Shown piece by piece: positions 124-15,831 of a DNA stretch of 64,000 nucleotides. The DNA comes from Hydrogenobacter sp. T-2 (GTDB lineage: Bacteria; Aquificota; Aquificia; Aquificales; Aquificaceae). Each line of letters opens with the position of its first letter. Position 1 is the stretch's first letter. The DNA lies in the NCBI RefSeq assembly GCF_033971325.1, contig NZ_CP117180.1:1122041-1186040 (forward strand). The letters run 5' to 3'. The notes below the pieces were generated by a model that was not told where the DNA came from, searched no databases, and saw only the letters and a program-made list of their open reading frames with translations. Position numbers and translations under genes: made by a program.

Positions 124-1083
124 TTAGCTCTTCTTTGAATACTTTCCAAAGGCAAAGCTCATTTTTCTTCCAATAATCTCTGGATTGAAGGGTAGATAAG
201 TCCTATTGGATTTTAAAAGTCCATCTATGTGAATGCTTGATTTGTTTACGAAGGCATTTCTTCCTACTATAGGCTTGTTGGGATGCACCCTTAGACCCTT
301 ATTTTCTATAAGATACTCTATGGCTTGGTATATCTTCTTTAGGTCAACTCCCGTCTCAATCCCCTGTATGATATCAAGGTAAAAAACAACCTCCTCTGTT
401 GGCGTTATCCCGCATCTCTCCCCAAGTCCGAGAAGTGAGGTGTTTATGAACCTTGCACCACTTAAGGATGCTACCACTGCGTTTGCAGTTGCCATGCCAA
501 AGTCGTTGTGAAGATGAACCTCTACGTCAATCATGGAGGATATATTTTTCACAAGCCTCTGGGTTTGTATTGGGTTTAAAACTCCCACCGTATCCGAAAG
601 CCTTACTCTGTCCGCCCCTAAGCTTTTTACATGCAGAACAAAGTCATATAAAAAAATCTCCTCAGCCCTTGACGCATCTTCAAGCCCAACTGAAGTATAA
701 AGCCCAATAGACTTGCAGTAAGGAATAAGGTCCTTTGCAAGCTCAAGAATGTAATGTCTATCCTTTTTCAGTTTCTCCCTTAACATAATGTCTGAAATTG
801 GAAAAGCTATTTCCACCCTTTTTACACCACACTGGATAGATAGCTCCAAGTCCTTAGGGTTTGCTCTGTTCCAAACTATAACCCTATCACCGAACCTCCC
901 TTTAACCAATTCTTTTATGAATGCCCTCTCTTCCTCGCTGTGAGCTGGAACACCCACCTCTATCTCTTCCACACCCGCAGAGGCTATAAGGTAGAAAAGG
1001 CACCTTTTTTCTTCATAGGAAAGCTCCAGCTCCTTTGACTGGACACCTTCTCGCAGGGTCGTATCTGTAATAAAAACCCTCAT
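124..1083 (-). CDS. nifV: NifV-like homocitrate synthase (HMGL/isopropylmalate synthase family), short form
   Basis: The 319-residue TIM-barrel protein carries family signatures: DTTLREG at 7-13 (substrate/metal), RLSDTVG at about 161-167, the metal-binding HLHND at 190-194 and a GLGERCG loop near 220. Family members condense acetyl-CoA with a 2-oxoacid; in a nif setting the expected product is homocitrate, the organic ligand of FeMo-co. The protein stops just after the GKHSG-equivalent (GKYSKKS), so it lacks about 60 C-terminal residues of usual NifV. The start ATG overlaps the stop of the upstream NifS-like gene (ATGA), indicating translational coupling. It is last in the AOR operon. A citramalate or isopropylmalate role cannot be excluded. 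Confidence 0.72.
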   Translation of the reverse strand: MRVFITDTTLREGVQSKELELSYEEKRCLFYLIASAGVEEIEVGVPAHSEEERAFIKELVKGRFGDRVIVWNRANPKDLELSIQCGVKRVEIAFPISDIMLREKLKKDRHYILELAKDLIPYCKSIGLYTSVGLEDASRAEEIFLYDFVLHVKSLGADRVRLSDTVGVLNPIQTQRLVKNISSMIDVEVHLHNDFGMATANAVVASLSGARFINTSLLGLGERCGITPTEEVVFYLDIIQGIETGVDLKKIYQAIEYLIENKGLRVHPNKPIVGRNAFVNKSSIHIDGLLKSNRTYLPFNPEIIGRKMSFAFGKYSKKS

Positions 1084-2147
1084 GTTAAGGCTCCTATACT
1101 GTGGAGTGTGTTTCTTAATGTATACAAAAACCTCTCTAATTCATCAATGGGGACTAAAGGTGGTAGCCTAAAGCTAAGAAGGTGGTCAAAACCACACCTT
1201 CTTCTGTTTGCCATACATGGAGTGGAAGTATTTAGATAGAAACCCCCTCTTTCTAAGAGAGATATGACCATCTCCAGTTCTACACCTTGTAAGCCAAAAG
1301 AAAAGAGGGCTGGAGCCTTACAGCCCTCCTTGAAAGCTGGTGGCAGAGGCAGGTTTTCCAAGACAAGCCCATCATACATTTCAAAGCTCTTTTTTATTTC
1401 ATCTCTTTTTTCCATTAAAAACCTCACAGATTGGGACAAAAGGTATATACCAAATAGATTTTCCTCACCTGCCCTTACCCCCCTTTCCTGAATACCCCCT
1501 TCAATAAGAGGCTTTAGTCTAATGCCCTTTTTAACATATAGAAAACCCACCCCTTGAGGAGCCATCAAAGAAGGTCCATCAAAACTCGCCATATTCAGCT
1601 CCTCCATGCTTATGCTGGGATAGTAAAGACCCCACATATCAAAGTGACATACCACATTGGGATTGACCTCCTTGACCGCAGAGACTATACCCTTAATATC
1701 CCTAAGGGTGGAAGTTTCTCTGCAGACAGCACCCATTGTAACCATTAGAGTATCTTCTCTAACCTGCTCTGCAACAGCCTGAGGGTCTACCCATCCCTTT
1801 TCGTCAGTTTGTATGTATACCACCTCAAAGCCCTGCCTTTCAAGCCCTTTTAGAGGATGGGTGATAGATATATGTTCAAAGTTTGTGGTGAGTATACTGC
1901 CCTTTTTACCGTATACATAGCCTTTGATGGCTAAATTGTTGCTCTCTGTAGAGCTTGAGGTGTATATAACCTCAAGGTTAGAGCATCCCAAAAAGCTCGC
2001 CAAAACACCCCTTGACCTTACCAGCATCTCCTTTGACCTTGTTGACAAGCTGTTTATACCAGTTGGATTTATGAAAAAAATGGATAAAAGTTCTTGCCTA
2101 AAGGCTCCATCAAGGGGTTGAGAAGAGGTAGGGTCAAGAAGTAGCAT
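1080..2147 (-). CDS. NifS/IscS-like class V aminotransferase-fold protein lacking the PLP lysine
   Basis: The 355-residue protein aligns by eye with NifS over its length: TSSSTESNN near 63-71, the FEHISI histidine near 92, the HFD motif at 168-170 and GGIQERGVRAGEEN near 217-230. The Schiff-base segment, usually (S/G)HKxxxPKG, reads GPSLMAPQG (191-199), so the catalytic Lys is Ser193 and the preceding His is Pro192. The Gln after the HxD motif is also lost. I re-read these codons from the raw sequence. The cysteine loop is remodelled to STPCMANRRRC. It is probably not a PLP cysteine desulfurase; a scaffold or sulfur-carrier partner role is speculation. It lies between AOR and nifV with overlapping ends; SD GAGGAG precedes the ATG. 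Confidence 0.78.
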   Translation of the reverse strand: MLLLDPTSSQPLDGAFRQELLSIFFINPTGINSLSTRSKEMLVRSRGVLASFLGCSNLEVIYTSSSTESNNLAIKGYVYGKKGSILTTNFEHISITHPLKGLERQGFEVVYIQTDEKGWVDPQAVAEQVREDTLMVTMGAVCRETSTLRDIKGIVSAVKEVNPNVVCHFDMWGLYYPSISMEELNMASFDGPSLMAPQGVGFLYVKKGIRLKPLIEGGIQERGVRAGEENLFGIYLLSQSVRFLMEKRDEIKKSFEMYDGLVLENLPLPPAFKEGCKAPALFSFGLQGVELEMVISLLERGGFYLNTSTPCMANRRRCGFDHLLSFRLPPLVPIDELERFLYTLRNTLHSIGALT

Positions 2148-3933
2148 GCGTAAACTCCTCCATAGAAAGCCTTATCAAGGTTTCCTTCTTTGGTATACCC
2201 AATTCATCCCATCCAAAAGCCTGATAAAATTCCTTTATCATCGCATTAAGCTCCTGCAGGCTTGTTCTATAGCCCTTTTCCGATGGCTCCTCTAAAATCC
2301 TGCGTGGTAGAGTATCATCCTTTCTGGAAAAGCCTTCCCTTACATTAAAGAGCCTTTCAAGGGTGTAAACCCTCTCTCCAACTGCGTATAGCTCCTCCAT
2401 AGACATGTCCCAGTCCATTAGGGCGTTTACCATGTCAAGTATCTTCTCATTAAGGGTTAAGCCCACAACCCTCTCCGCACTTAGACAGTAAATAATACTG
2501 TTTACTATACTGGTCCATACCGCAAGGTCTTTCCCCACCTTGCCCTTTCCCTCCCATTTTCCCAGAGGCGTTATGTTGTTCTCCTCAAGACCAGGTCTTA
2601 TATCACAGTGAACAGGACCTCTGTTGGCTACCGCATAACCAAGGGCTTGAGTTTTTACAGCTCTTGGAGAATGCCCCGCTGTTTCCATACCCTTTACCGT
2701 CATCACAAACTCGCCCCCTACCCCTAACCTTCGAGATGCCTTCTCAGAGCCTTCAGCAAGAAGGTCTCCTATACCCTCTCTAAAGGCAATTTTCCTTAAA
2801 AGCTCCCTAACAGCCTCTGTGTTGCCAAAGTAAAGCTCAAGCCCATCCAAGTCTTCTCTTTTTAAGAGCCCTTTCTCATAGCACTCCATCACCCAAGCTA
2901 CCACACCACCGGTTTGTATCTGACCAAGCCCAAGCTCGTCAGTAAGCCTATCAAGCTCTATAAGATGGTCCAAGTTTCCATTTCCTATGATAGTTCCCAT
3001 GGCGTATATGCCCTCATACTCGGGTCCTACCGTAAAGGTATTTTGAGCCACGGAATACTTTCCGCAGGGAACTATGCATCCGGGACAGGATACATCCTTT
3101 ATTACCCTCTCTCTTAATCTTTCACCGCTGACCTCTTCTGCATAGGGGAAAACCTCCTTCTGCCAGTTGTAAGAGGGTAAAATTCCAAGGTGTTGAAGGT
3201 GCATTACTCCTGCGGAGGTTCCATACTTTATGAGATTTTTAACGCCCGGATGGCTGTATACAGCCTTCTCAAATTCTTTTACGAAGTCTATAAGCCTTTT
3301 AGGGTTTTTGGGTTCTATTAGCTTAGTTCCTCTTACGGTTATTGCCTTTATTCTTTTTGACCCCATCACTGCACCCATACCCCCTGTGCCTACAGCCCTC
3401 AGGTCTGAGATAATACAGGCATATTTAACAAGATTCTCCCCTGCAGGCCCAATTACCAGAGCCTTTATGTCCTCTCCATATCTTCTTTTTAGTTCTTGCT
3501 GAGCTTGACTGGTGTGGAAGCCTCTCAGATATTCAGCATCAAAAAAGTAAACTCTTTGGTTTTCTATGTGTATGTGTGTCCATTGGTCACAAGAGCCAGT
3601 TATTATAATGCCATCCCAACCTGCAAACTTACATTCATGACCAAACTCCCCTCCACAGAAACCCTTGGTAAATCCCATGGTTTGAGGTGACTTGGAATAT
3701 ACACCAAACTTTGAGGACATAGGCACAAGTGTACCGTTGGCAGGACCAGTATTTACAATAAGTATGTTTTCCTCAGAGAGCGGGTCTATACCCTTTTTCA
3801 TAAGGGTGTATAGAAGATAAGCACCTATGCCGTTACCCCCTATGTACCTTTCCACAACCCGCTCAGGCACCTCGTAAACATCCACCCTTTTGTGCGTAAG
3901 GTCTATAAACAGATATCTGCCAAACCAACTCAT
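2134..3933 (-). CDS. Aldehyde:ferredoxin oxidoreductase family tungsten/molybdo-pterin enzyme
   Basis: The 599-residue length and the N-terminal block (GGNGIGAYLLY, NTGPANGTLVP, SKSPQTMGFTKGFCGG) are typical of AOR enzymes, which bind a tungsten or molybdenum bis-pterin cofactor and a [4Fe-4S] cluster and oxidise aldehydes to acids while reducing ferredoxin. A CPGCIVPC motif near residue 285 provides three cluster cysteines. The start overlaps the ferredoxin stop (ATGA) and the 3' end overlaps the NifS-like gene. Together with a MoaD-like protein and a dicluster ferredoxin it forms a self-contained W/Mo oxidoreductase module. The operon starts at a sigma-54 promoter with a NifA site, so co-expression with nitrogenase is likely. 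The aldehyde substrate is unknown. Confidence 0.88.
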   Translation of the reverse strand: MSWFGRYLFIDLTHKRVDVYEVPERVVERYIGGNGIGAYLLYTLMKKGIDPLSEENILIVNTGPANGTLVPMSSKFGVYSKSPQTMGFTKGFCGGEFGHECKFAGWDGIIITGSCDQWTHIHIENQRVYFFDAEYLRGFHTSQAQQELKRRYGEDIKALVIGPAGENLVKYACIISDLRAVGTGGMGAVMGSKRIKAITVRGTKLIEPKNPKRLIDFVKEFEKAVYSHPGVKNLIKYGTSAGVMHLQHLGILPSYNWQKEVFPYAEEVSGERLRERVIKDVSCPGCIVPCGKYSVAQNTFTVGPEYEGIYAMGTIIGNGNLDHLIELDRLTDELGLGQIQTGGVVAWVMECYEKGLLKREDLDGLELYFGNTEAVRELLRKIAFREGIGDLLAEGSEKASRRLGVGGEFVMTVKGMETAGHSPRAVKTQALGYAVANRGPVHCDIRPGLEENNITPLGKWEGKGKVGKDLAVWTSIVNSIIYCLSAERVVGLTLNEKILDMVNALMDWDMSMEELYAVGERVYTLERLFNVREGFSRKDDTLPRRILEEPSEKGYRTSLQELNAMIKEFYQAFGWDELGIPKKETLIRLSMEEFTHATS

Positions 3934-4421: not shown

Positions 4422-4437
4422 TGCAATAAATATACCA
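4422..4437 (-). promoter_or_regulatory. Sigma-54 (-24/-12) promoter of the AOR-nifV operon
   Basis: Read on the minus strand, TGGTATATTTATTGCA has GG and GC dinucleotides at the exact sigma-54 spacing (consensus TGGCACGN4TTGCA). The -24 half is weaker than consensus. It lies 15-30 bases upstream of the MoaD-like ATG and points into that operon. Confidence 0.72.
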
Positions 4438-4477
4438 AGACTTTTCCCTTCTTTTTGTATTATTTATTACATAAGGT

Positions 4478-4493
4478 TGTAAGCTACCTTACA
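4478..4493. promoter_or_regulatory. NifA upstream activator site (TGT-N10-ACA)
   Basis: TGTAAGCTACCTTACA is an exact TGT-N10-ACA site with extended dyad symmetry (TGTAAG-N4-CTTACA). It is also embedded in TAAGGT-N8-ACCTTA. It lies about 75 bases upstream of the predicted AOR-operon start site and 40 bases upstream of the activator gene on the other strand, so it could serve activation of the operon and autoregulation. Confidence 0.65.
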
Positions 4494-4532
4494 TAATAGT
4501 GTTGGAAACATTACACAAAGGAGGTCTTTCGC

Positions 4533-6125
4533 TTGGCATCAATGTTGCATATATTTAAATTGATGATGGATGAGAAGTTTACAAGCCTTGAAGTTAATCT
4601 GCTTTATAACCTCTCAAAAGAGCTAACCAGTATGAACCAGGACCCGGAGAGGATTATAAGGTGGGTGGTGCGTATGATTGGCGAAATACCAGGCATCAGA
4701 AGGGTTGTGTTTTACATAGCGGATAGTGAAACCTCCAAAGCATCTCTTATTGCCAGCGTTGGCGTGGACGAGGGTAGCATAACCCTCAGTAAAAAGGAGG
4801 GGGTGCTGGGCTTCGTGCTAAGGGAGGGCTATCCTGTGGTTATAAAGAACCTCTCAGAAGAGCCCATCTTTTTAAACAAAATAAGGAGGCAAAGTCTGAC
4901 AGACGTAATATTTATTGCGGTGCCCGTAAAGCATAGCAATAGGGTTGTGGGAATAATAACGGTTGATGTGAGTAAAGAGTTTGGCAAGACAGCTCATCTC
5001 ATGGAGCTACTGGTTATGATATCAAACCTCATAGGTAATTACATATACACTTATATGAAGCTAAAGGAAAAGGAAGAAGCCTATAAGGAAGAGATAGCTA
5101 TACTAAAGAAGGAGGTGTTGAAAAAGTTCAAGGTTGAGGGTTTTGTGGGTGGGAGTAAGGCTTATCAAGATATTGTAAAACAGGTGATAAAGCTGGCAAA
5201 CCTTGACACCATAGTGATGATACGCGGAGAGTCTGGAACGGGTAAGACTACAGTGGCAAGAGCCATACATTACCTTTCTCCCAGAAAGAACCGCTCCTTT
5301 GTTGAGATAAACTGTTCCACCATACCTGCGGAGCTCTTTGAGGCTGAGCTCTTTGGATACGAAAAGGGAGCTTTTACGGGTGCCTACGCCAGCAAGCCAG
5401 GTAAGGTGGAAATAGCCAACGGCGGAACTCTCTTCTTTGACGAGGTGGGTGACCTAAGCCCTGCGGTGCAGGCAAAACTACTCAGGTTCATACAGACAAA
5501 GGAGTTTGAGAGGTTAGGAAGTAATAAAACCCTTAAGTCGGACGCCAGAATAATAGTCGCCACCAACAAGAACCTTGAAGAAATGGTGGCAAAGGGTGAG
5601 TTTAGGGAAGACCTCTATTACAGAATATCAGTATACCCTCTCTATATTCCACCCCTCAGGGAAAGAAAGGAAGACATCCCCGTTTTGGTTGAGCACTTTC
5701 TTAAACGGATGAGTAGCACTATGGGTAAGAACATAGGAATAGAAGACGAAGCCCTCAGAGTTTTAGCGTCCTGTGACTTTCCTGGAAATGTAAGAGAGCT
5801 TATAAACTGTCTTACGAGGGCTGTTATAAACTCCAACGGAAAGGTTATAAAAGCACAGGATATCTCTTGTATAGGCTCTAGGGTATGTTTTTCTCACATG
5901 ATAAAAAGTTATGCTAAACCAAAAAGCGAGGAGAAACAAGAACAGATAAACACACCCCCTGTAAAAAGTGAAGAGAAGCCCTCAAAGGATGAAAGAACTC
6001 TCATAATAGAAACTCTGGAAAAGGTTGGATATGTGCAAGCAAAAGCTGCAAGACTACTTGGAATGACCGTAAGACAGCTCAACTACAGAATAAAGAAGTA
6101 TGGAATACCAATAAAGAAAATTTAA
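4533..6125 (+). CDS. nifA: NifA-type sigma-54-dependent transcriptional activator
   Basis: The 530-residue protein has an N-terminal GAF domain (about 20-175), an AAA+ ATPase domain (about 205-440; Walker A GESGTGKT at 232-239, sigma-54 contact loop GAFTGA at 279-284, Walker B GGTLFFDE) and a C-terminal Fis-type helix-turn-helix (about 495-530). Cysteines 414, 426, 446 and 452 give C-X11-C-X19-C-X5-C, nearly the C-X11-C-X19-C-X4-C of oxygen-sensitive NifA proteins. TTG at 4533 is chosen because AAAGGAGG sits 8 bases before it; the next ATG is 17 bases away. The gene converges on nifX with a 4-base overlap. It probably activates both sigma-54 promoters in this window. Confidence 0.9.
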   Translation: MASMLHIFKLMMDEKFTSLEVNLLYNLSKELTSMNQDPERIIRWVVRMIGEIPGIRRVVFYIADSETSKASLIASVGVDEGSITLSKKEGVLGFVLREGYPVVIKNLSEEPIFLNKIRRQSLTDVIFIAVPVKHSNRVVGIITVDVSKEFGKTAHLMELLVMISNLIGNYIYTYMKLKEKEEAYKEEIAILKKEVLKKFKVEGFVGGSKAYQDIVKQVIKLANLDTIVMIRGESGTGKTTVARAIHYLSPRKNRSFVEINCSTIPAELFEAELFGYEKGAFTGAYASKPGKVEIANGGTLFFDEVGDLSPAVQAKLLRFIQTKEFERLGSNKTLKSDARIIVATNKNLEEMVAKGEFREDLYYRISVYPLYIPPLRERKEDIPVLVEHFLKRMSSTMGKNIGIEDEALRVLASCDFPGNVRELINCLTRAVINSNGKVIKAQDISCIGSRVCFSHMIKSYAKPKSEEKQEQINTPPVKSEEKPSKDERTLIIETLEKVGYVQAKAARLLGMTVRQLNYRIKKYGIPIKKI

Positions 6126-6508
6126 ATATAATCTGTATCCCCAGTCCTGTCTTTGGTAAGGGCTTTTCTTAGCCATGGAGGTGGGTTTTCTCTCAAGGTT
6201 TTTAAAAGTTGGTCTAATATATCCTTTATGGGTGTAGGCTCGTTAACCTTGACGGGATGGATCTTTGCCTTAACTACCCTTGCGGCCGCCGTGGCCCCTA
6301 TGGCTATAACATAGACTATAGCACAATCCTTTATGGCTTCAACTTTTGAATTTATCTTGTCATACTCCTCGTCTGGCACGTCTTCAAAGTTTCTATACTC
6401 CAAAAATTCGTAGCCCTTCTCATCTATCTCGTAAACAGCCATGGTTCTTGCGTGACCAAAATGGTCATCCACCTTATCAAGACTTTTGGTTGCAAAGGCT
6501 ACCCTCAT
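6122..6508 (-). CDS. nifX: NifX-family FeMo-cofactor carrier
   Basis: The 128-residue protein begins MRVAFATKSLDKVDDHFGHA, the hallmark N-terminus of the NifX/NafY/VnfX cofactor-binding family, with a conserved HFGHA loop. NifX shuttles NifB-co and the VK-cluster to and from NifEN during FeMo-co maturation. It is the last gene of the long nif operon, 3 bases after nifN, and its stop overlaps the 3' end of nifA on the other strand, so no terminator fits between them. Confidence 0.9.
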   Translation of the reverse strand: MRVAFATKSLDKVDDHFGHARTMAVYEIDEKGYEFLEYRNFEDVPDEEYDKINSKVEAIKDCAIVYVIAIGATAAARVVKAKIHPVKVNEPTPIKDILDQLLKTLRENPPPWLRKALTKDRTGDTDYI

Positions 6509-6511
6509 GGC

Positions 6512-7846
6512 TCACCTCCTTTTTATGTGCTCAGGAATATGATAAGATGCTTCTTCATCCCTTTCCATGAGTAGATTAGCAAGTTCAAAGACAAGGTTTG
6601 CAGTGCCTTCATAGCCTATATAGCCCTTTAAAAAGTGTCCAAGTCTATCAAAAATAGGAATTCCAACCCTGTAATGTGGAGCTTTTATCTCCTTGGCAAT
6701 ATGCCTTAGGTTTGTATTTCCTATAAGTAAGTCTATATCCGAGCCATCTATATGTAAGAGTATATCTTCAAGGTCTCCAATGATAACCTTACCTACTGGC
6801 AGATTCTCCAAACCATCAGCGTATGTGGGGCTTACAATTAGGGGAACCTCCGCGCCCATCTCTTTAGTGAGGAAGTTAGCCATACCCCAGAGAAAATCAG
6901 GCTCACCAGCCACCACTACCTTTTTACCAGTTAGATAAAAGTGGCTGTCCACCATGGCATCTAAAAGCCTATCTCTCCATCTTTTAACCGACTCTGGTGG
7001 CTCCTTCCCGCTGAGGTTTATAAGCAGGCTTATGAGACTGTCAAAGTTTTCCAGACCTATAAGGCTATCGTAATAAAACATGGGTATCATAAACTTCTTT
7101 TCCAAATACTCCCCTGCTTCCCTTACGCTCTCACCTATGGCTATGGTTATAGTAGAGGCTGGCATCATTTCTATGTCTCTTATATCAGTTCCATATTTTG
7201 TTATGCTGGAAAATGCTTTAGCCTGCCCGTCCAAACTGCGCATATCTGGGAATATAACCGGCTTGAAACCAAAGCTCTTTATAAGCTCTTCTATAGCGTC
7301 TATATCCTTTGCGGTCATGGAATAACTGATTAGAAGGTTTATTTGATTTGGGCTTTTCTTCATTGGAGCTCGTAGGAGGCTTCTTAGGATAGAGCTAACC
7401 GCCTTTGAATAGCCCTCGTGGAAGGAGCCCACGTAGTCGGGTGTGGAAACAAAGACTATCTTTGTATGAGAATACTCATCGTAGAGTTCTCTAAACATCT
7501 TTATAGAACCCTCAGTGTCATCTCCTCTCGTTTCGCTTACACCGGTGGAAACAACGCCAACAAACTCTGGTTTATTCTTTTCTATGACATTTTTGAGGGC
7601 TGTATGCAGGTTTTCGTCGCCACCCATAATGGTGACTATCTCTGAAAGTGCAGTGGTTTGCATGGGTATGTTCTCCCAAAAGTGCCTTGTTAGAAAGGTC
7701 TTGGCAAAGGCTGCACATCCTTGAGAGCCGTGCATTATGGGCATGGAATTTTTAACACCCAGAATCGCATACACAGCACCAAGTGGTTGGCTCATTTTTA
7801 GAGGATAGACAGAACAAGCCTTCGAAGACCTTATAAGCTCTGCCAT
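6512..7846 (-). CDS. nifN: Nitrogenase FeMo-cofactor scaffold subunit NifN
   Basis: The 444-residue NifK homologue shows SKACSVYPLKMSQPLGA near 8-24 and a GSQGCAAFAKTFLTRHF block near 41-57, both diagnostic of NifN. It forms the NifE2N2 scaffold on which NifB-co is converted to FeMo-co. Its start lies inside the last codons of nifE (16-base overlap). It lacks the third P-cluster Cys region of NifK (STGVSE instead of TTCMAE), as expected for NifN. Confidence 0.93.
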   Translation of the reverse strand: MAELIRSSKACSVYPLKMSQPLGAVYAILGVKNSMPIMHGSQGCAAFAKTFLTRHFWENIPMQTTALSEIVTIMGGDENLHTALKNVIEKNKPEFVGVVSTGVSETRGDDTEGSIKMFRELYDEYSHTKIVFVSTPDYVGSFHEGYSKAVSSILRSLLRAPMKKSPNQINLLISYSMTAKDIDAIEELIKSFGFKPVIFPDMRSLDGQAKAFSSITKYGTDIRDIEMMPASTITIAIGESVREAGEYLEKKFMIPMFYYDSLIGLENFDSLISLLINLSGKEPPESVKRWRDRLLDAMVDSHFYLTGKKVVVAGEPDFLWGMANFLTKEMGAEVPLIVSPTYADGLENLPVGKVIIGDLEDILLHIDGSDIDLLIGNTNLRHIAKEIKAPHYRVGIPIFDRLGHFLKGYIGYEGTANLVFELANLLMERDEEASYHIPEHIKRR

Positions 7847-9189
7847 GGTGCCTTCCTCCTGTAAAGTTTGAACACGGGGCTGTAAAGGGTTCTTACAAGC
7901 TCCTGTGCAAGGATGAGCATACCATCATAGCCTGCATAGGGCTTTATCCTCTCTTGGTTTGTATCCAGGAAGGGGATACCTTCTTTGAGTGCTACAAACT
8001 TACTCCGACCCCCCGCCATTAGGAGGTCTACATCATACTCCTTAAACATACGAACCAGCTCTTTTGGATTAGGGTCATCCACTATTTTGCCTTCATCTCC
8101 AAGTAGCTCTATCATCCTTTCCTTGTCCCCTGAGGTGCTTTTTTTGCCACTGGTTCCTACTACCACCATACCAAGCTCCTGAACCTGAGAAACCATTGAC
8201 CAACTCTTTACCCCACCAGTGTTTATAAGAACCCTTTTCCCTCTCAACTTTTCTATGTAGGGCTGTAGCTTTTCTTTTATCCTCTTTTCCTCTCTTTCTA
8301 TTAACCTCTCAGTTCTCTCTATGAGTTCCTCACTACCAAGCAATCTTGCAAAGTTTCTAAGGGCATCGCTGGTGTCCTTTATACCATAAAAGGAGCCTTC
8401 AAAGTAGGGTATTCCATACTTTTCCTCCATCTTTCTTGCGAGGTTCAGCATGGTTTTTGAACACACAACCATGTTAACCCTTGCCCTGTGAGCACAGGCA
8501 ACCTGCCTGTAGGTAACATCCCCGCTTATACAGGCAAGTATCCTTATACCAAGCTCTTTAAACAGAGGTTTTACCTGCCAAAGCTCCCCCGCTATGTTGT
8601 ATTCACCCAGTAGGTTCACATCATAGTCTGTGGTGTATTCTGGCTCTTGAGTTCCTATTACATATCTAAAAAGGGCATCACCCGCAAGTTTATTGCCGAG
8701 GTTCTTACTACCCACAAACCCGGGAGATTCCACTGGTATAATAGGCACACCCAAATCCTCAGAAGCCTTCTTACATACGCTCACAACATCATCGCCTATC
8801 ATAGCAGGCACGCAGGTCTGATATACAAAAACCGCAGAAGGTTTATACCTTTCTACCACCTCTTTTATAGCTCTGTATAGTTTCTTTTCACCCCCATGCA
8901 CCACATCCATCTCGCTCATATCCGTAGTAAGCCCAATTCTGTAGTTGGTAGAAAAGGAGGAACGCGTCCCTCTGTTGTCCCAGCTGTTTCCTGCACAAGG
9001 AATAGGTCCATGAACGAGGTGCAGGGCATCCGAAATGGGAACTAACGCTATCTGTGCACCATCAAAGGCACATCCGCCAGATGCACCGCCTGGCTTTGGT
9101 TTTGAACAGCCCTGTTTCTTTTCCTTCTCGCTCTTTAGCTTATTATGTCCACAATTAGGTTCAAAGAAGAATTCTTCAAGCCTTTTCAT
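7831..9189 (-). CDS. nifE: Nitrogenase FeMo-cofactor scaffold subunit NifE
   Basis: The 452-residue NifD paralogue contains GGCAFDGAQIALVPI, GPIPCAGNSWDNRG and the QTCVPAMIGDD motif, which supply the cluster cysteines of the NifEN scaffold. A Cys/Lys-rich N-terminal stretch (CGHNKLKSEKEKKQGC) precedes the fold. It sits after the DegT-like gene with a 12-base gap and SD GGAGG, and overlaps nifN. Confidence 0.93.
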   Translation of the reverse strand: MKRLEEFFFEPNCGHNKLKSEKEKKQGCSKPKPGGASGGCAFDGAQIALVPISDALHLVHGPIPCAGNSWDNRGTRSSFSTNYRIGLTTDMSEMDVVHGGEKKLYRAIKEVVERYKPSAVFVYQTCVPAMIGDDVVSVCKKASEDLGVPIIPVESPGFVGSKNLGNKLAGDALFRYVIGTQEPEYTTDYDVNLLGEYNIAGELWQVKPLFKELGIRILACISGDVTYRQVACAHRARVNMVVCSKTMLNLARKMEEKYGIPYFEGSFYGIKDTSDALRNFARLLGSEELIERTERLIEREEKRIKEKLQPYIEKLRGKRVLINTGGVKSWSMVSQVQELGMVVVGTSGKKSTSGDKERMIELLGDEGKIVDDPNPKELVRMFKEYDVDLLMAGGRSKFVALKEGIPFLDTNQERIKPYAGYDGMLILAQELVRTLYSPVFKLYRRKAPWQSL

Positions 9190-9201
9190 GGCACACCTCC
9201 T

Positions 9202-10266
9202 TTAATGGTCCACACTGCCTGCACCTATTTGGACTGCGTGTTCCTTCAATCTTTCACACACAAAATACACATCATCCTCTTCCATATCCTGATGTAAAGG
9301 TAAAAGGAGGGCTCTTGTGCTCACCTCGTGGGCTATATGGAGATGCTCGAGCGGTTTGCCTTCCAGCATGTCCTGAGATATGGGATACTCCAAGACCTCT
9401 ATTCCATCGTCATACATAAGGTTCTTAATGAGCCCTCTCGCATCCTTTGAGTATCTCTTACCAAAATGCACAGAAAAGTAAGACCAGCACATCTTTGTTA
9501 CATACTTGGGAGGATATTGAGCCTTTATCCCTTCTATGGCAAGCAGATAGCGAGAATATAGATTGGCTAAATCTCCTCTAATCGCAATAGTATCGTCAAG
9601 TTGTTTGACCTGAGAGAATATTACGGAGGACATAATATCATCCAGTGGGGGTGAATCCTCCTTTAGTCTTTCATAAATAAGTCTATCGTCGGTCAAAACT
9701 ATGCCACCGTATCCCATCAACACGGAGCTCTCTGAAAACTCAAGGAAAGAAACATGCCCAAAAGAGCCTGCTGGTTTTCCCTTATACTCGCTGAATAGTG
9801 TCTCTCTTGAATCCTCTATCAATAGGATACCTTTGCCGTTGACCAACTCCCTGAGAGCGTCCCAGTCCATGGGGTTTCCCAAGGAATTACTGCCTATGAT
9901 AACTTTTATGTCCTCAGACATAACATTAGAAAGCCTTTTTGTGTCAATGTTTAAAAACCACCTTTCAGCGTCAGGATAAAGGGGGCAAGCACCTATGAGC
10001 CTTAGGTAAGGGGAAAAATGTTTGTGAAAGGATAGGGGAGAGATTAACACCTTTGAGCCATTACTTACACCTGCATACTTTAAAAGGGTTAGAAGTGGCA
10101 GTATCAGGTCTCTAACTGCAAGCGCGTATCTTCTTTTCGTATATTCACAGAAGAAGTCTTCCAGCTCTCGCCTTTTTAGTCCTGAAAAGGCATAAGGGTA
10201 GCTCATGGCTTCAACTGCGGAAAACATGTTCTCTTTTGAAAAGCTACGAGGCTTAAAGGTTATCAT
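9202..10266 (-). CDS. DegT/DnrJ/EryC1/StrS aminotransferase-fold protein lacking the PLP lysine
   Basis: The 354-residue protein follows the DegT/DnrJ pattern: an N-terminal YAFSGLKRRELE-type segment, SPLSFH, a NSLGNPMDWDAL stretch, the IEDSRE acidic motif near 150-155 and YKGKPAGSFGHVSF. Where family members have a Lys five residues before GEGG, this one reads SESSVLMGYGG, with Ser180 in the lysine position; I checked the codons. PLP aminotransfer by the usual mechanism is therefore unlikely. It lies between a TPR-like gene (overlapping it) and nifE, so it belongs to the nif operon. A structural or small-molecule-binding role in nitrogenase assembly is possible. The exact function is unknown. 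Confidence 0.75.
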   Translation of the reverse strand: MITFKPRSFSKENMFSAVEAMSYPYAFSGLKRRELEDFFCEYTKRRYALAVRDLILPLLTLLKYAGVSNGSKVLISPLSFHKHFSPYLRLIGACPLYPDAERWFLNIDTKRLSNVMSEDIKVIIGSNSLGNPMDWDALRELVNGKGILLIEDSRETLFSEYKGKPAGSFGHVSFLEFSESSVLMGYGGIVLTDDRLIYERLKEDSPPLDDIMSSVIFSQVKQLDDTIAIRGDLANLYSRYLLAIEGIKAQYPPKYVTKMCWSYFSVHFGKRYSKDARGLIKNLMYDDGIEVLEYPISQDMLEGKPLEHLHIAHEVSTRALLLPLHQDMEEDDVYFVCERLKEHAVQIGAGSVDH

Positions 10267-10726
10267 CTTCCCTTACCTCTATAAGTCCTAACATTGTGGA
10301 AATACCAAACTCGCCCTTCTCATCTATCTCCTTAAGGAGGCTTAGTATCTCTGTAGCCTTTTCTAAGGAACCAAGCCTCATAAGCATAAAGGCGTATGCG
10401 GAGTAAGCATTTATGAAAAGCCTTATATCGTAATCCTCAAGGTTAGACCTTAGGTAGGCTAACATTTCCCTTTTTTCCTCGGGTATGTTCCTCTTTGAAC
10501 GAAGCATATCCATAATTTTTAGAGCTACCTGAATAGCCATAGAGTAGTTTTGTCTATAAAAGAAAAACCTATATGCAGAAACAAGCACATTCAGGTTGTC
10601 CCTGTCTTCCTCAAGGGCTTTTAACACATACTGGCTTGACTTTTCTGTGTCCTCCCAGCTCTCTACAGCCCTTTGTAAGTTCGCCTTTACATGTTCTGGA
10701 GCTTCAAACCAGGAAAAGGAAGTCAT
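10253..10726 (-). CDS. Helical-repeat (TPR-like) protein of the nif operon
   Basis: The 157-residue protein is all-helical, with TPR-like pairs (ASWEDTEKSSQYVLKALEE-like, NYSMAIQVALKIMDML, SAYAFMLMRLGSLEKATEIL). No enzymatic motif is visible. It overlaps the DUF269 gene upstream (4 bases) and the DegT-like gene downstream (14 bases), so it is translated with them. A scaffold or chaperone role in nitrogenase assembly is an inference from location only. Confidence 0.6.
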   Translation of the reverse strand: MTSFSWFEAPEHVKANLQRAVESWEDTEKSSQYVLKALEEDRDNLNVLVSAYRFFFYRQNYSMAIQVALKIMDMLRSKRNIPEEKREMLAYLRSNLEDYDIRLFINAYSAYAFMLMRLGSLEKATEILSLLKEIDEKGEFGISTMLGLIEVREDDNL

Positions 10727-11175
10727 ATGTTTGCCACCTCGATGTATTTTTCAACAAGCTCTAAAGCCTTATCTATAAACTTTTGTGCCTGCAAAGCCAT
10801 TTCATCAAGGGATTTAAAGCGAAACTTGTTGGCATCCCTTATGCTTTTGTTGACAAGGATAAGGCGTCCCGAGTATATAAGCACAATGCCGTTACCTTCC
10901 TCATCAAGGTTTATGACCACAGAGGTTAAAAGACCAGAAGACTTTTCTATGAGAGCACCTATAGCTTTGAAGTAGGCATGTAGTTTAAGCAGAGCCTTTG
11001 GGTCCACCTCGCAGTGTCCCATAAGAGAAAGAGAAGCTTGTTTCTCAGACTTTGTTAGGAAAAGATGGTTCAGGATGTCATGGTCGCTCTTTTTTTCCCA
11101 TGTTCCGTAGGTGTCGTAGGCTCTTATCTGATTTACTATCTCTTTAAGGATCTCTTCTCCCCTTTCCGCTACCAT
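10723..11175 (-). CDS. NifX-associated protein (DUF269)
   Basis: The 150-residue protein carries the DUF269 signature: VNQIRAYDTYGTWEKKSD near the N-terminus, LIYSGRLILVNKSIRDANKF in the second half, and a C-terminal helix with LELVEKYIEVA. Members are found almost only beside nifX/nifEN and are needed for full nitrogenase cofactor maturation in some diazotrophs. Here it follows the CRP-like gene (7-base overlap), with AGGAGG of that gene's last codons acting as its ribosome-binding site. Confidence 0.88.
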   Translation of the reverse strand: MVAERGEEILKEIVNQIRAYDTYGTWEKKSDHDILNHLFLTKSEKQASLSLMGHCEVDPKALLKLHAYFKAIGALIEKSSGLLTSVVINLDEEGNGIVLIYSGRLILVNKSIRDANKFRFKSLDEMALQAQKFIDKALELVEKYIEVANI

Positions 11176-11741
11176 ATCCTTAACCTCCTACTTTCCAAAG
11201 TTTTTAAACCGCTCATACACCTTACCGTATGCTCATAACTGAGCCCAGCCATGCTGGATATCTGAAATTTGTTTACGGTGAGTTTTATGTTTCTTTCTTC
11301 TAAGTTTTTATCCAACAACTGCAGAAGGTTTCTTATTCTATCCGTTGCCCTTGTGGCAGAAAGAAGGGTAAAAACTCTGTATAGGTAAGCCTGCCTGTCA
11401 AGAAGGGAGGAGAAGAGCTCAAGGATAAGCCCTGGCTCAGTCTCTCCCAGTTTTTTAAGCCCGTCCATGCTTGTGTGGAGCACCTTTGACGCTGTTATAG
11501 CCCTAGCTCCGTAACTTGTTTTATAGGTGCTATTAGAGATAACACCAAACACATCGCCCGGTAGCAGAAGGTCCAACACGTTCCTTTTGGATTTTACAAA
11601 GGTGTATAGCTCAACCGCACCATCTTCGAGCACATATATACCCTCTTCACTTGAGCCTTCCGAGATTATACTTTCTCTCCTTTTATAACTTAGCTCCCTT
11701 ATAAGTCCGCAACGTGTGTATTTTTTCAGCTCCTCAACCAT
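11169..11741 (-). CDS. CRP/FNR-family regulator embedded in the nif operon, short C-terminus
   Basis: The 190-residue protein has a cyclic-nucleotide-binding-like beta-barrel (IISEGSSEEGIYVLEDGAVELY; LLLPGDVFGVI near 65-80), a long dimerisation helix and a helix-turn-helix (KFQISSMAGLSYEHTVRCMSGLKTLE). It ends at about the recognition helix plus one strand (RRLRIW), about 20 residues short of CRP and missing the wing. No FNR-type N-terminal cysteine cluster is present. It is 4 bases after the second nifK ORF. It might sense redox or energy state and tune nif expression; the target is unknown. Confidence 0.8.
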   Translation of the reverse strand: MVEELKKYTRCGLIRELSYKRRESIISEGSSEEGIYVLEDGAVELYTFVKSKRNVLDLLLPGDVFGVISNSTYKTSYGARAITASKVLHTSMDGLKKLGETEPGLILELFSSLLDRQAYLYRVFTLLSATRATDRIRNLLQLLDKNLEERNIKLTVNKFQISSMAGLSYEHTVRCMSGLKTLESRRLRIW

Positions 11742-11745
11742 GGCT

Positions 11746-12633
11746 CTACCTTATAAGGTCAAAGCTGTAGTCGGTTTTGGCTATTTCTATGGTGTTTCTG
11801 TCTGTCTCGTCAAGTATGGTGTTTACTATCCAAGTAAGCAGGTTTATAGCACCCTTGTAAAAGAGTATCCCGTATCTATGTAGATGGTGTCTGTCAAAGA
11901 TGGGATACCCTATCCTTATGAGTGGTGTTTTTGTGTCTCTCCATAGGAATTTTCCATAGGAAGTTCCTATCATGTAATCCACGGGTTCTGTAAACAGAAG
12001 GCTTCTCATATGCCAAAGGTCTTTGCCAGGAAAGACTTGTGCATATTTACCATTGTCATATTTTGCACATAGCTCTTTTATCTCGTTTGCCCATTCCTCT
12101 CCAGCGTTAGTGCATAATATGTGCACTGGCTCCGCACCAAGCTCTAACAGAAAGGAGGTGATGCCATAGACGAAGTCTGGGTCACCCCAGAGGGCAAACC
12201 TCTTGCCGTGTATCCAATAATAGGAGTCCGCCATGGCGTCAAGGAGTTTCTGCCTTTCTACGGAGAGGCTTTCTGGCACTGGTTTGCCAGTTAGCTTGGA
12301 GATGAGCTGTAAAAATTCATCCGTCCCCTGCACGCCGTAGGGTCTTACTATATAGGCGGGTTGTTTCCATGCGTTTTCTATGTATTCCCTCGTCTTCTGA
12401 GTAGAGTATTTCTGAAAACTTATGGTAGCAAGGGAAAACTTAGCCCTGTATATGTCCTTTATGGGAGTTCCACCGTAGTAGAGTTTATACTCTCCTGTAA
12501 GCCCAGAGTCTAAGTTGTCCGAAGGGTCGGAGAGTATTATGCATTCTTCACCAAACTCTTTTATTATCCTTTTGGTTTCCCTAAAATCTTCCAAGTAAGT
12601 ATGAAATCCAAGTATAAGGTTTAAAGTGCTCAT
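11746..12633 (-). CDS. nifK: C-terminal half of nitrogenase MoFe protein beta chain (split nifK, part 2)
   Basis: The 295 residues begin at the NifK position that normally reads (K)INIIPGFDTY (here [19 protein letters not shown]) and continue with ILSDPSD, YYGGTP and [16 protein letters not shown] to a natural C-terminus. The first ORF supplies the N-terminal domain. Start ATG overlaps the first ORF's stop (ATGA), and AAAAAGGAGG lies 7 bases upstream, so independent re-initiation is expected. All P-cluster cysteines are in part 1; this part supplies the second and third Rossmann-like domains. A sequencing frameshift is less likely because the junction has its own good SD and falls at a domain boundary. 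Confidence 0.85.
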
Positions 12634-13379
12634 GGCTGTGCCTCCTTTTTCTCTTCAAGCCAAGCGAGCAGTCCACCATTCTGGTAGAACTCTCCGCTCT
12701 CTGAGTCATACTTGTCTATGTTGTCCACGCCGTATTTATCAAAGTAGTTTGTCATATACTCTAGGATGCCCTTTAGCTGATTATCGTATCCTGTGATATG
12801 AGAACCAACAAAGGATGGTGTATGGGCAAAGGGTACTGGAAAGTCTTCTGGTATAAGCCCCTTTTCCTTTGTAACCCTTATAAAGCCGTTGAGGTCATCT
12901 CCTATAACTTCCGCCATGCATGTGGTGCTTACCGCTATCATCTTAGGTCTGTATAGTGCTATGGCGTTCTGCAAACCCTCGTTCATATTGCTTAAACCTC
13001 CAAAGACCGCCGCATCTTCTGTCATGGAAGTGGATACCATAGGCACTGGTTCCTTAAAGTGCCTTGCCATATGTGTTCTGAAGTAAGCCACACAACCCTG
13101 AGAACCATGAGAAAAGGGCAGGGTCTTTTCAAAACCAAGGGCGCAGAAGAGCGCCCCAAGAGGCTGGCAGGCTTTGGCGGGATTTATTGAAATCGCTTCC
13201 CTTTTAAAGTTGAGCTCTCTGTATTCCCAGCTCTTAGTCCACTCCGCAACCTCTTTTACCTTATCCTCTCCTACCCAGTTCTCAAAGTTTTCCCTTTTGT
13301 TCTTTATCATCTGGGCAAACTCATCGTTCCTAAAACACTCAAGATGGTCTTTTATGTTTAGTTCATGATGTATACCCAT
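12630..13379 (-). CDS. nifK: N-terminal half of nitrogenase MoFe protein beta chain (split nifK, part 1)
   Basis: The 249 residues match the N-terminal domain of NifK, with P-cluster cysteines Cys71 (KACQPLGA), Cys96 (GSQGC) and Cys154 ([11 protein letters not shown]) and the ARHFKEP segment. After the [17 protein letters not shown] block comes an extra stretch of about 40 residues ([12 protein letters not shown]...[15 protein letters not shown]) where other NifK proteins run straight into the next domain, then TGA. Parts 1 and 2 sum to 544 residues, close to full-length NifK plus this linker. It lies 13 bases after nifD. Confidence 0.87.
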
Positions 13380-13392
13380 AGCTATTACCTCC

Positions 13393-14841
13393 TTACTGCT
13401 CCCAAGGAGCCTTTATAAGTTTCCATACACCGCCGTTTACAGCCATATCCATATCCCTCGCAAATATCTCAAAGCCCTCTATGCCGTGATAGGGTCCGCT
13501 GTAATCCCAGCTGTGCATCTGTCTGAAGGGCACTCCCATCTTCTGGGACTGATACTTTTCCTTTATGCCAGAGGCTACAAGGTCTGGCTTGAGCTTTCTC
13601 GTGAGCTCTTCTATCTCATAGGCTGTGGCATCGTCAACCACTATGGTTGCGTTTTTGTCTATGTAGTGGAGGGTTCTATCGTAGTCATCCTGGTGAGCAA
13701 ATTCGTATCCTGTGGCTACCACGTTCATCCCCAGGTCCTCAAAGGCTGTTATGATATGCCTTGGTCTTAGTCCGCCCACATAGAGGATAACCGTTTTGCC
13801 CTCCAACCTTGGTCTGTATTTCTCTATTACCCTGTCAAGCCTTGGCTTATATTCCTTCTCTATAAGCTCCTCCGTTCTTTCTTTTATCTTGTCATCAAAT
13901 AGGCTTGCTATCTTTCTCATAGATTCAAAGATCTGGGTTGGTCCAAAGAAGTTGTACTCTACCCAAGGTATTCCAAACTTCTCCTCAAAATACCTCGCAA
14001 GATAGTTGGATGATCTATAGCAGTGCACCAAGAGATATTTGACCTTTACAGCGTTTGCCACCTCGCTTAATGTTCCGTCGCCTGACCATTGGGTAACCAC
14101 CCTTAACCCCATGGCTTCGAGTATTTTTCTAGAAGCCCAAGCATCACCACCTATGTTGTAGTCACCCCATATAGCCACATCATAGGGAGATGGTTCTATC
14201 TTCTGTCCCTCAACCTTTTTCTCGTAAATCCAGTCTCTCATGGAGTCGTTGGCTATATGGTGTCCTAAGGACTGAGAAACGCCTCTAAAACCTTCACATC
14301 TTACTGGGACAACTAATTTACCGATTTCCTTTGCGGTCTGTCTTGCTACAGCCTCTATATCGTCCCCTATGAGACCTATTGGACATTCAGATTGTATTGT
14401 AATTCCCTTTACAAGAGGAAACAACTCATTTAGTTCCTGTATGGCTTTCGTGAGCTTTTTATCGCCGCCGAAGACTATATCCCTTTCTTGAAAGTCCGTA
14501 GTAAAGTGTGGTGTCACAAAGGTATCAACACCCGTTGTTCCTATGTAGTAGTTTCTGCGACCAGCCCTTGAGTAGTATCCACAGCCCACGGGCCCGTGGG
14601 ATATATGTATCATATCCTTGATAGGACCCCACACCACGCCCTTTGAACCAGCATAGGCACAGCCTCTAACGGTCATAACGCCGGGTCTGGTTTTGATGTT
14701 GGATTTGGGAGCACACTTGGCGTCCCCCGGCTCAGTTACAACTACATGCTTTTGCCTATCCTTTTTAGCCTTTGAGGGATAGGCACTCAACACCTCTTCT
14801 ATAAACTTTAGTGCGGTTTCCTTATCTACGATTATACCCAT
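13393..14841 (-). CDS. nifD: Nitrogenase MoFe protein alpha chain
   Basis: The 482-residue protein has the P-cluster cysteines Cys61 ([11 protein letters not shown]), Cys87 (GPVGCGYYS) and the [10 protein letters not shown] cysteine, the FeMo-co ligand cysteine in [11 protein letters not shown] and the cofactor histidine in [11 protein letters not shown]. Catalytic residues therefore look intact for a molybdenum nitrogenase; vanadium and iron-only AnfD/VnfD-type features are not seen and no delta subunit is present. It follows nifH by 12 bases. Confidence 0.96.
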
Positions 14842-14853
14842 GATAAAACCTCC

Positions 14854-15720
<867 letters not shown>

Positions 15721-15734
15721 TCACCCTCTATACA

Positions 15735-15750
15735 TGCAATATTTGTGCCA
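15735..15750 (-). promoter_or_regulatory. Sigma-54 (-24/-12) promoter of the nifH operon
   Basis: Minus-strand TGGCACAAATATTGCA matches the sigma-54 consensus at both boxes with exact spacing. The predicted start site is near 15,724, leaving a leader of about 28 bases before nifH. It resembles the -12 half of the AOR-operon promoter (TATTGCA). Confidence 0.9.
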
Positions 15751-15831
15751 ACTGAAGGGAGAGTAAAGATAGACCTTGTGCTTCAAGGCTTTTGATGTTT
15801 TTATGAGCTATTGGAGGATATGACAATTCCT

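Follow-up and report, generated by a model that had tools for sequence, protein, structure and literature searches.

A DegT-like protein without the Schiff-base lysine in nif clusters: probably an undescribed helper for building nitrogenase

The nif operon and its DegT-like gene

The analyzed window is a stretch of 64,000 nucleotides from Hydrogenobacter sp. T-2 (contig NZ_CP117180.1, positions 1,122,041 to 1,186,040 of the forward strand). Along the minus strand the gene order is nifH, nifD, a split nifK, a Crp-like gene, DUF269, a TPR-like gene, the DegT-like gene, nifE, nifN and nifX; neighboring genes overlap or are separated by short distances. The nifA gene is on the plus strand, further along the window. 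The features used below are listed in window coordinates.

124-1083, minus strand: nifV-like gene
1080-2147, minus strand: NifS-like protein, the second lysine-less fold-type-I protein, with FDGPSLMAPQG at the lysine site and the cysteine of STPC kept (from sequence)
2134-3933, minus strand: aldehyde:ferredoxin oxidoreductase (AOR) gene beside nifA
6122-6508, minus strand: nifX (TIGR02663, above cut-off)
6512-7846, minus strand: nifN (TIGR01285, above cut-off)
7831-9189, minus strand: nifE, directly downstream of the DegT-like gene after a 12-base gap (TIGR01283, 645.6 bits, above cut-off)
9202-10266, minus strand: nif-associated DegT-like protein, 354 residues (ORF and translation, PF01041, Aquificaceae orthologues)
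9703-9735, minus strand: SESSVLMGYGG, codons 178-188, replacing K-x4-GEGG of DegT proteins, with Ser180/Ser181 at the Schiff-base lysine site (translation, 49-protein column comparison, alignment to ArnB K188)
10102-10110, minus strand: D-L-I, codons 53-55, where DegT enzymes have the phosphate-binding S-G-T (column comparison)
10253-10726, minus strand: TPR-like protein, overlapping the start of the DegT-like gene by 14 bases (weak Pfam matches only)
10723-11175, minus strand: DUF269, NifX-associated nitrogen fixation protein (PF03270, 126 bits; TIGR02935, 129 bits, just under cut-off)
11169-11741, minus strand: Crp/Fnr-like regulator within the nif operon (PF00027; counterparts in G079, G080 and G022)
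11746-13379, minus strand: nifK as two overlapping ORFs, N half 12630-13379 and C half 11746-12633 (TIGR01286 positions 5-210 and 222-516)
13393-14841, minus strand: nifD (TIGR01282, above cut-off)
14854-15696, minus strand: nifH (own sequence; ORFs 94-97% identical in the other close clusters)
15735-15751, minus strand: sigma-54 promoter-like site TTGGCACAAATATTGCA upstream of nifH (pattern scan)

The split nifK is common to genomes G080, G079 and G022 and is not found in G081 or G042. A split NifK has already been reported for Pampinifervens in PMC12780486, which cites Palmer et al. 2025. A Crp/Fnr-like gene lies between nifK and DUF269 in all four close Aquificaceae. It is shortened in G080 (L069 9450-10021), where nifD also appears as two overlapping ORFs (L069 6344-7787), and for both genes a frameshift or sequencing error is possible. 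In G042, nifE is broken into two ORFs (L073 7181-8544). No counterpart of the window's TPR-like gene was seen in the other four Aquificaceae nif clusters.

The DegT-like gene belongs to the operon that runs from nifHDK to nifENX behind the sigma-54-like site. A GG-N10-GC site precedes nifH in four genomes (the window, G080, G079 and G022). The TGT-N10-ACA pattern occurs before nifH in G079 and G022, and in the window it is found before the AOR gene and not before nifH. The region upstream of the AOR gene (4422-4515) contains three TGT-N10-ACA sites and a sigma-54-like site, and an AOR gene lies near nif genes in all five nif-positive Aquificaceae. The NifV-like proteins have 316-330 residues in four Aquificaceae (the window, L132, L133 and L134) and 378 in G081; the window copy ends about 50 residues short of the end of the homocitrate synthase profile.

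Lost PLP features in the DegT-like and NifS-like proteins

The DegT-like ORF is intact from ATG to stop, encodes 354 amino acids and matches PF01041 (DegT/DnrJ/EryC1/StrS in Pfam) with 123.1 bits (2.1e-35, cut-off 19.8). A first-pass annotation of the window had proposed that this protein has lost the Schiff-base lysine, and coordinates, reading frame and the motif SESSVLMGYGG (residues 178-188 of the translation) were all confirmed. In a phmmer alignment to ArnB (1mdo), D152 corresponds to D160 and S180 to K188. The loop is one residue shorter than in most compared DegT proteins, and the lysine site is S180 or S181, both serine. Lysine occupies this column in 49/49 generic homologues, a set of DegT proteins from other loci returned by these searches and including many Aquificota proteins. 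In the genome of the window itself, L031 and L032, the two top-scoring DegT genes besides this one, also retain it.

Other PLP-binding features have been lost as well. The phosphate-binding motif is well conserved in the generic set (S in 48/49, G in 42/49, T in 47/49) and is replaced in 5/5 Aquificaceae proteins, while the three full-length Proteobacterial members described below retain SGT or SAT. The FSF serine is gone in all nine nif-associated members, with L or E in the window protein depending on the alignment, and a deletion has removed the G-Y-N loop from the four close Aquificaceae orthologues, the window protein included. The pyridine-nitrogen aspartate D152 is invariant across the eight full-length members. 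With the lysine, S-G-T, the FSF serine and the G-Y-N loop lost, PLP chemistry is unlikely. Judged from its sequence, the window protein is a member of the DegT sequence and fold family and not of the DegT enzyme class.

The same picture emerges from comparison with characterized members of PF01041. ArnB, PseC, WbpE and perosamine synthase share with the window protein the profile match, the IED containing the pyridine-nitrogen Asp and the G-x-GG turn after the lysine site. Unlike them, the window protein lacks the Schiff-base lysine, S-G-T, the FSF serine and the G-Y-N loop, is found in a nif context, and adds the nif-specific residues W103, N127, W135 and H267 and a C-terminal GAG. NCBIfam matches of the nif-associated proteins were all far below the cut-offs, indicating that no NCBIfam model covers the group.

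The first-pass reading counted on orthologues that also lack the lysine. This holds for most members, the residues in the lysine column of the nine being S, S, K, N, K, S, S, S and L, but not for two of them. The close orthologue in G079 (FSEKSLITGCGG) has K at the site or one residue from it, and the divergent member in G081, the MAG UBA2488, has K at the canonical position (FDFDFNKVLTTGKGG).

ColD and E1/DdhC, which act on nucleotide sugars, are PMP-dependent 3-dehydratases that bind PMP non-covalently and in which a catalytic histidine replaces the Schiff-base lysine; they share with the window protein a DegT fold lacking this lysine. The nif-associated proteins could similarly be PLP or PMP enzymes that operate without lysine, for example with non-covalent PMP as in ColD and E1, and make or alter a small molecule for nitrogen fixation. 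The presence of such lysine-less enzymes in the family (ColD, 3gr9, was among the matches), the conservation of D152, the S-G-T or S-A-T of the full-length Proteobacterial members and the lysine of G081 are in agreement with this. However, the histidine was absent in all nine members, which have S, N, L or K at the site, and the Aquificaceae proteins have a degraded phosphate site and have lost the FSF serine and G-Y-N loop. Furthermore, the lysine column drifts among close orthologues (S, S, K, N), which suggests that there is no constraint at this position. We regard an enzyme of this kind as unlikely, although it deserves some weight.

A second lysine-less fold-type-I protein had also been noted in the window, and the NifS-like ORF at 1080-2147, with FDGPSLMAPQG, bears this out. 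The lysine site reads S, S, S, F and Y in the five nif-positive Aquificaceae (the window, L069/L134, L132, L133 and L071), and the cysteine at the SGSAC position is retained in each. Both proteins are fold-type-I PLP proteins that lost the lysine within the same presumed NifA regulon, but the NifS-like protein belongs to the class V desulfurase family and has kept its active-site cysteine. This combination suggests that the protein carries or accepts sulfur and is not a desulfurase.

The coincidence of the two losses, to which the first-pass annotation drew attention, holds for Aquificaceae but not in general. In Paraburkholderia aromaticivorans and Methylococcus, a NifS with both lysine and cysteine is encoded near a DegT protein without lysine, whereas in G081 the lysine is kept in the DegT protein and lost from the NifS-like one. 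Thus, the two losses are not tied across the group. Among the clusters examined, the lysine-less NifS-like version was seen only in Aquificaceae.

Distribution, grouping and selection

In a survey of 136 Aquificota genomes, nifE was found in eight at a threshold of 1e-120 or better. An orthologue of the DegT-like gene was present in exactly five genomes, all Aquificaceae (the window's own genome G000, G080, G079, G022 and G081), and absent from the other 131. The neighborhood search that had been proposed placed the orthologue directly upstream of nifE in 5/5 nifE-positive Aquificaceae. The three nifE-positive Aquificota genomes of other families have no orthologue; one of them is G042, whose nif cluster is in other respects much like that of G081.

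Among 293 genomes reaching many other phyla, 11 outside Aquificota had nifE and none of these a DegT score near the group. No further members came from the phyla of two other diazotrophs or from a scan of viral sequences, and in two pattern scans of genome contigs the UBA2488 MAG was the only additional chromosomal member. Nitrogen fixation in general can do without the DegT-like gene, which is missing from three other Aquificota and 11 genomes of other phyla that have nifE. Strong profile matches in other phyla (G147, G212, G180 and others) were set aside as generic DegT enzymes because no nif cluster was recognized nearby and the lysine was kept wherever the motif could be extracted.

Relatives in Proteobacteria came from a search of plasmid proteins with the G081 protein as query. 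The top matches by score were from Methylococcus and two Paraburkholderia, followed by Bradyrhizobium, and all four sit in nif clusters and lack the lysine. When the window protein was in turn used as query, Methylococcus and both Paraburkholderia scored 161-164 bits, after which scores dropped to 97 bits or less with arnB-type enzymes. In Paraburkholderia and Methylococcus the order is nifB ... nifZ-nifZ ... NifS-nifT-small protein, then the DegT gene. Paraburkholderia aromaticivorans (L077 9169-10011) and Methylococcus (L078 9773-10615) have a SIR2-like gene (SIR2_2) downstream of the DegT gene. The nif clusters listed for Rhodobacter capsulatus (PMC6925177) and Zymomonas (PMC8594446) likewise contain SIR2-like genes.

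As far as these sequences tell, the association of DegT with nif is older and wider than was supposed at first. All nine members are located within nif clusters, and orthologues in non-nif contexts, which were looked for, were not met. Since related genes were found only in nif clusters, the protein is probably a helper in building nitrogenase and not an ordinary enzyme.

In an unrooted maximum-likelihood tree of 58 sequences, with the generic homologues fetched in these searches as outgroup, a branch with support 100/97 separates the nine nif-associated proteins from the 49 generic homologues. Because long branches meet at this point, the tree was rebuilt with subsets removed, and the grouping held in each case, with support of 92 after removal of G081, 97 after removal of the four close Aquificaceae and 100 when only the Proteobacterial members were kept. 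It is also supported by residues that are characteristic of the group and seldom or never seen in other DegT proteins: W103, N127, W135 and H267 occur in at least eight of nine members and in 0, 1, 3 and 0 of 49 generic proteins, respectively, to which the C-terminal GAG can be added. Absence of the lysine does not define the clade, as it fails in G081 and G079. On this tree the state of the residue requires two changes: lysine may have been lost twice, or lost once and later regained.

These results bear on the idea that an ordinary sugar aminotransferase gene was caught in a nif operon with its function unchanged. The fold family and the Pfam match are what such a gene would show, but not the loss of the catalytic lysine and the phosphate motif, the exclusive nif context in two phyla, the separate position in the tree or the lack of sugar-biosynthesis genes nearby, and we give this idea hardly any credence.

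The gene could also be a decaying pseudogene that is kept only by its position in the operon. The Pfam signature indeed weakens from 292 bits in Paraburkholderia through 214 in G081 to 123 in the window, and the Bradyrhizobium copy seems frame-broken, for which a sequencing error is possible. In contrast, the ORFs of the Aquificaceae are intact and the C-terminal GAGS-x-D is conserved among them. The four close orthologues, from three genera, are 57-67% identical, with near-saturated synonymous change (pS 0.71-0.84) and pN of only 0.21-0.26. Such a low pN relative to pS indicates purifying selection and not decay. The constraint is similar to that on DUF269 and weaker than that on nifE in the same four genomes. 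Decay is therefore very improbable, and context, tree and selection together disfavor both the pseudogene and the ordinary sugar enzyme.

A possible role in nitrogenase maturation

The two genomic contexts have cofactor assembly in common, with nifE, nifN, nifX and DUF269 in Aquificaceae and nifB, nifZ, nifS and nifT in Proteobacteria, which points to an accessory factor of maturation in which the DegT fold would serve for binding or docking. The explanation we favor, with moderate confidence, is that a DegT-fold pseudo-aminotransferase has turned into a dedicated nitrogenase accessory protein, most likely for maturation of FeMo-co or Fe-S precursors, that works without PLP catalysis. It would have a binding, docking or scaffold role in maturation of the iron-molybdenum cofactor or iron-sulfur precursors, and would act beside NifEN in Aquificaceae and with the nifB-nifZ-nifS-nifT block in Proteobacteria. 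This supposes that the gene is expressed as protein, that the product works in maturation and not elsewhere in the nif system, and that the remodeled pocket binds something other than PLP.

Remodeling of the pocket is plausible, as N127 and E155 align to ArnB H135 and H163, which are near the PLP-binding D160 in sequence. An AlphaFold model of the protein, with two usable sequences, had a pLDDT of 35. A more specific version, which we put forward tentatively, is that this pseudo-enzyme clade of at least two phyla is an unrecognized dedicated cofactor-maturation factor of nitrogenase, in which the former PLP pocket was rebuilt (W103, N127, W135, E155 and H267) and might hold or hand over a cofactor intermediate.

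Recruitment of an inactive PLP fold, as the first-pass annotation had it, thus survives in part. A nif role without PLP is the best reading of the exclusive nif context, the grouping, the selection and the lost PLP features, but nothing indicates homocitrate or another particular ligand. A carrier for homocitrate or another organic cofactor component, as that annotation had suggested, could use the former small-molecule pocket and the conserved, nif-specific basic residues R45, K248, H267 and R271. Against homocitrate, nifV of the Aquificaceae genomes is not part of the operon containing the DegT gene but is located beyond nifA and the AOR gene. In Paraburkholderia and Methylococcus, it is absent from the genes annotated up to about 8 kb from the DegT gene. 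Overall, we consider a ligand carrier of this type quite improbable.

A dedicated maturation factor would resemble NifX, NafY, NifZ, NifW and NifT, which are likewise accessory, non-universal, encoded among cofactor-assembly genes and likely non-catalytic. These proteins belong to other families than DegT, and no DegT-like protein in such a role was found in the papers searched. Searches for papers linking DegT proteins to nif gave none that was relevant by title and abstract; Palmer et al. 2025, on nitrogen fixation in Pampinifervens, may list the gene.

Nitrogenase assembly is a main target of efforts to transfer nitrogen fixation to new hosts, and the inventory of its accessory parts is not yet complete. 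A conserved protein that was found only in nif clusters, has a recognizable ancestral fold and has lost its catalytic residue is a directly testable candidate part. For the nif-associated group, the automatic label 'aminotransferase' is probably wrong.

Because Aquificaceae fix nitrogen at high temperature, the DegT-like protein may matter for thermophilic or microaerobic nitrogenases. No test of the gene was found in PMC12780486 or PMC6307999. Growth on N2 was reported for Pampinifervens with a split nifK (PMC12780486), and nitrogenase activity at 70 °C was described for Hydrogenobacter strains (PMC6307999), which indicates that systems of this kind work. The latter paper names two Aquificae with nifH, Hydrogenobacter thermophilus and Thermocrinis albus.
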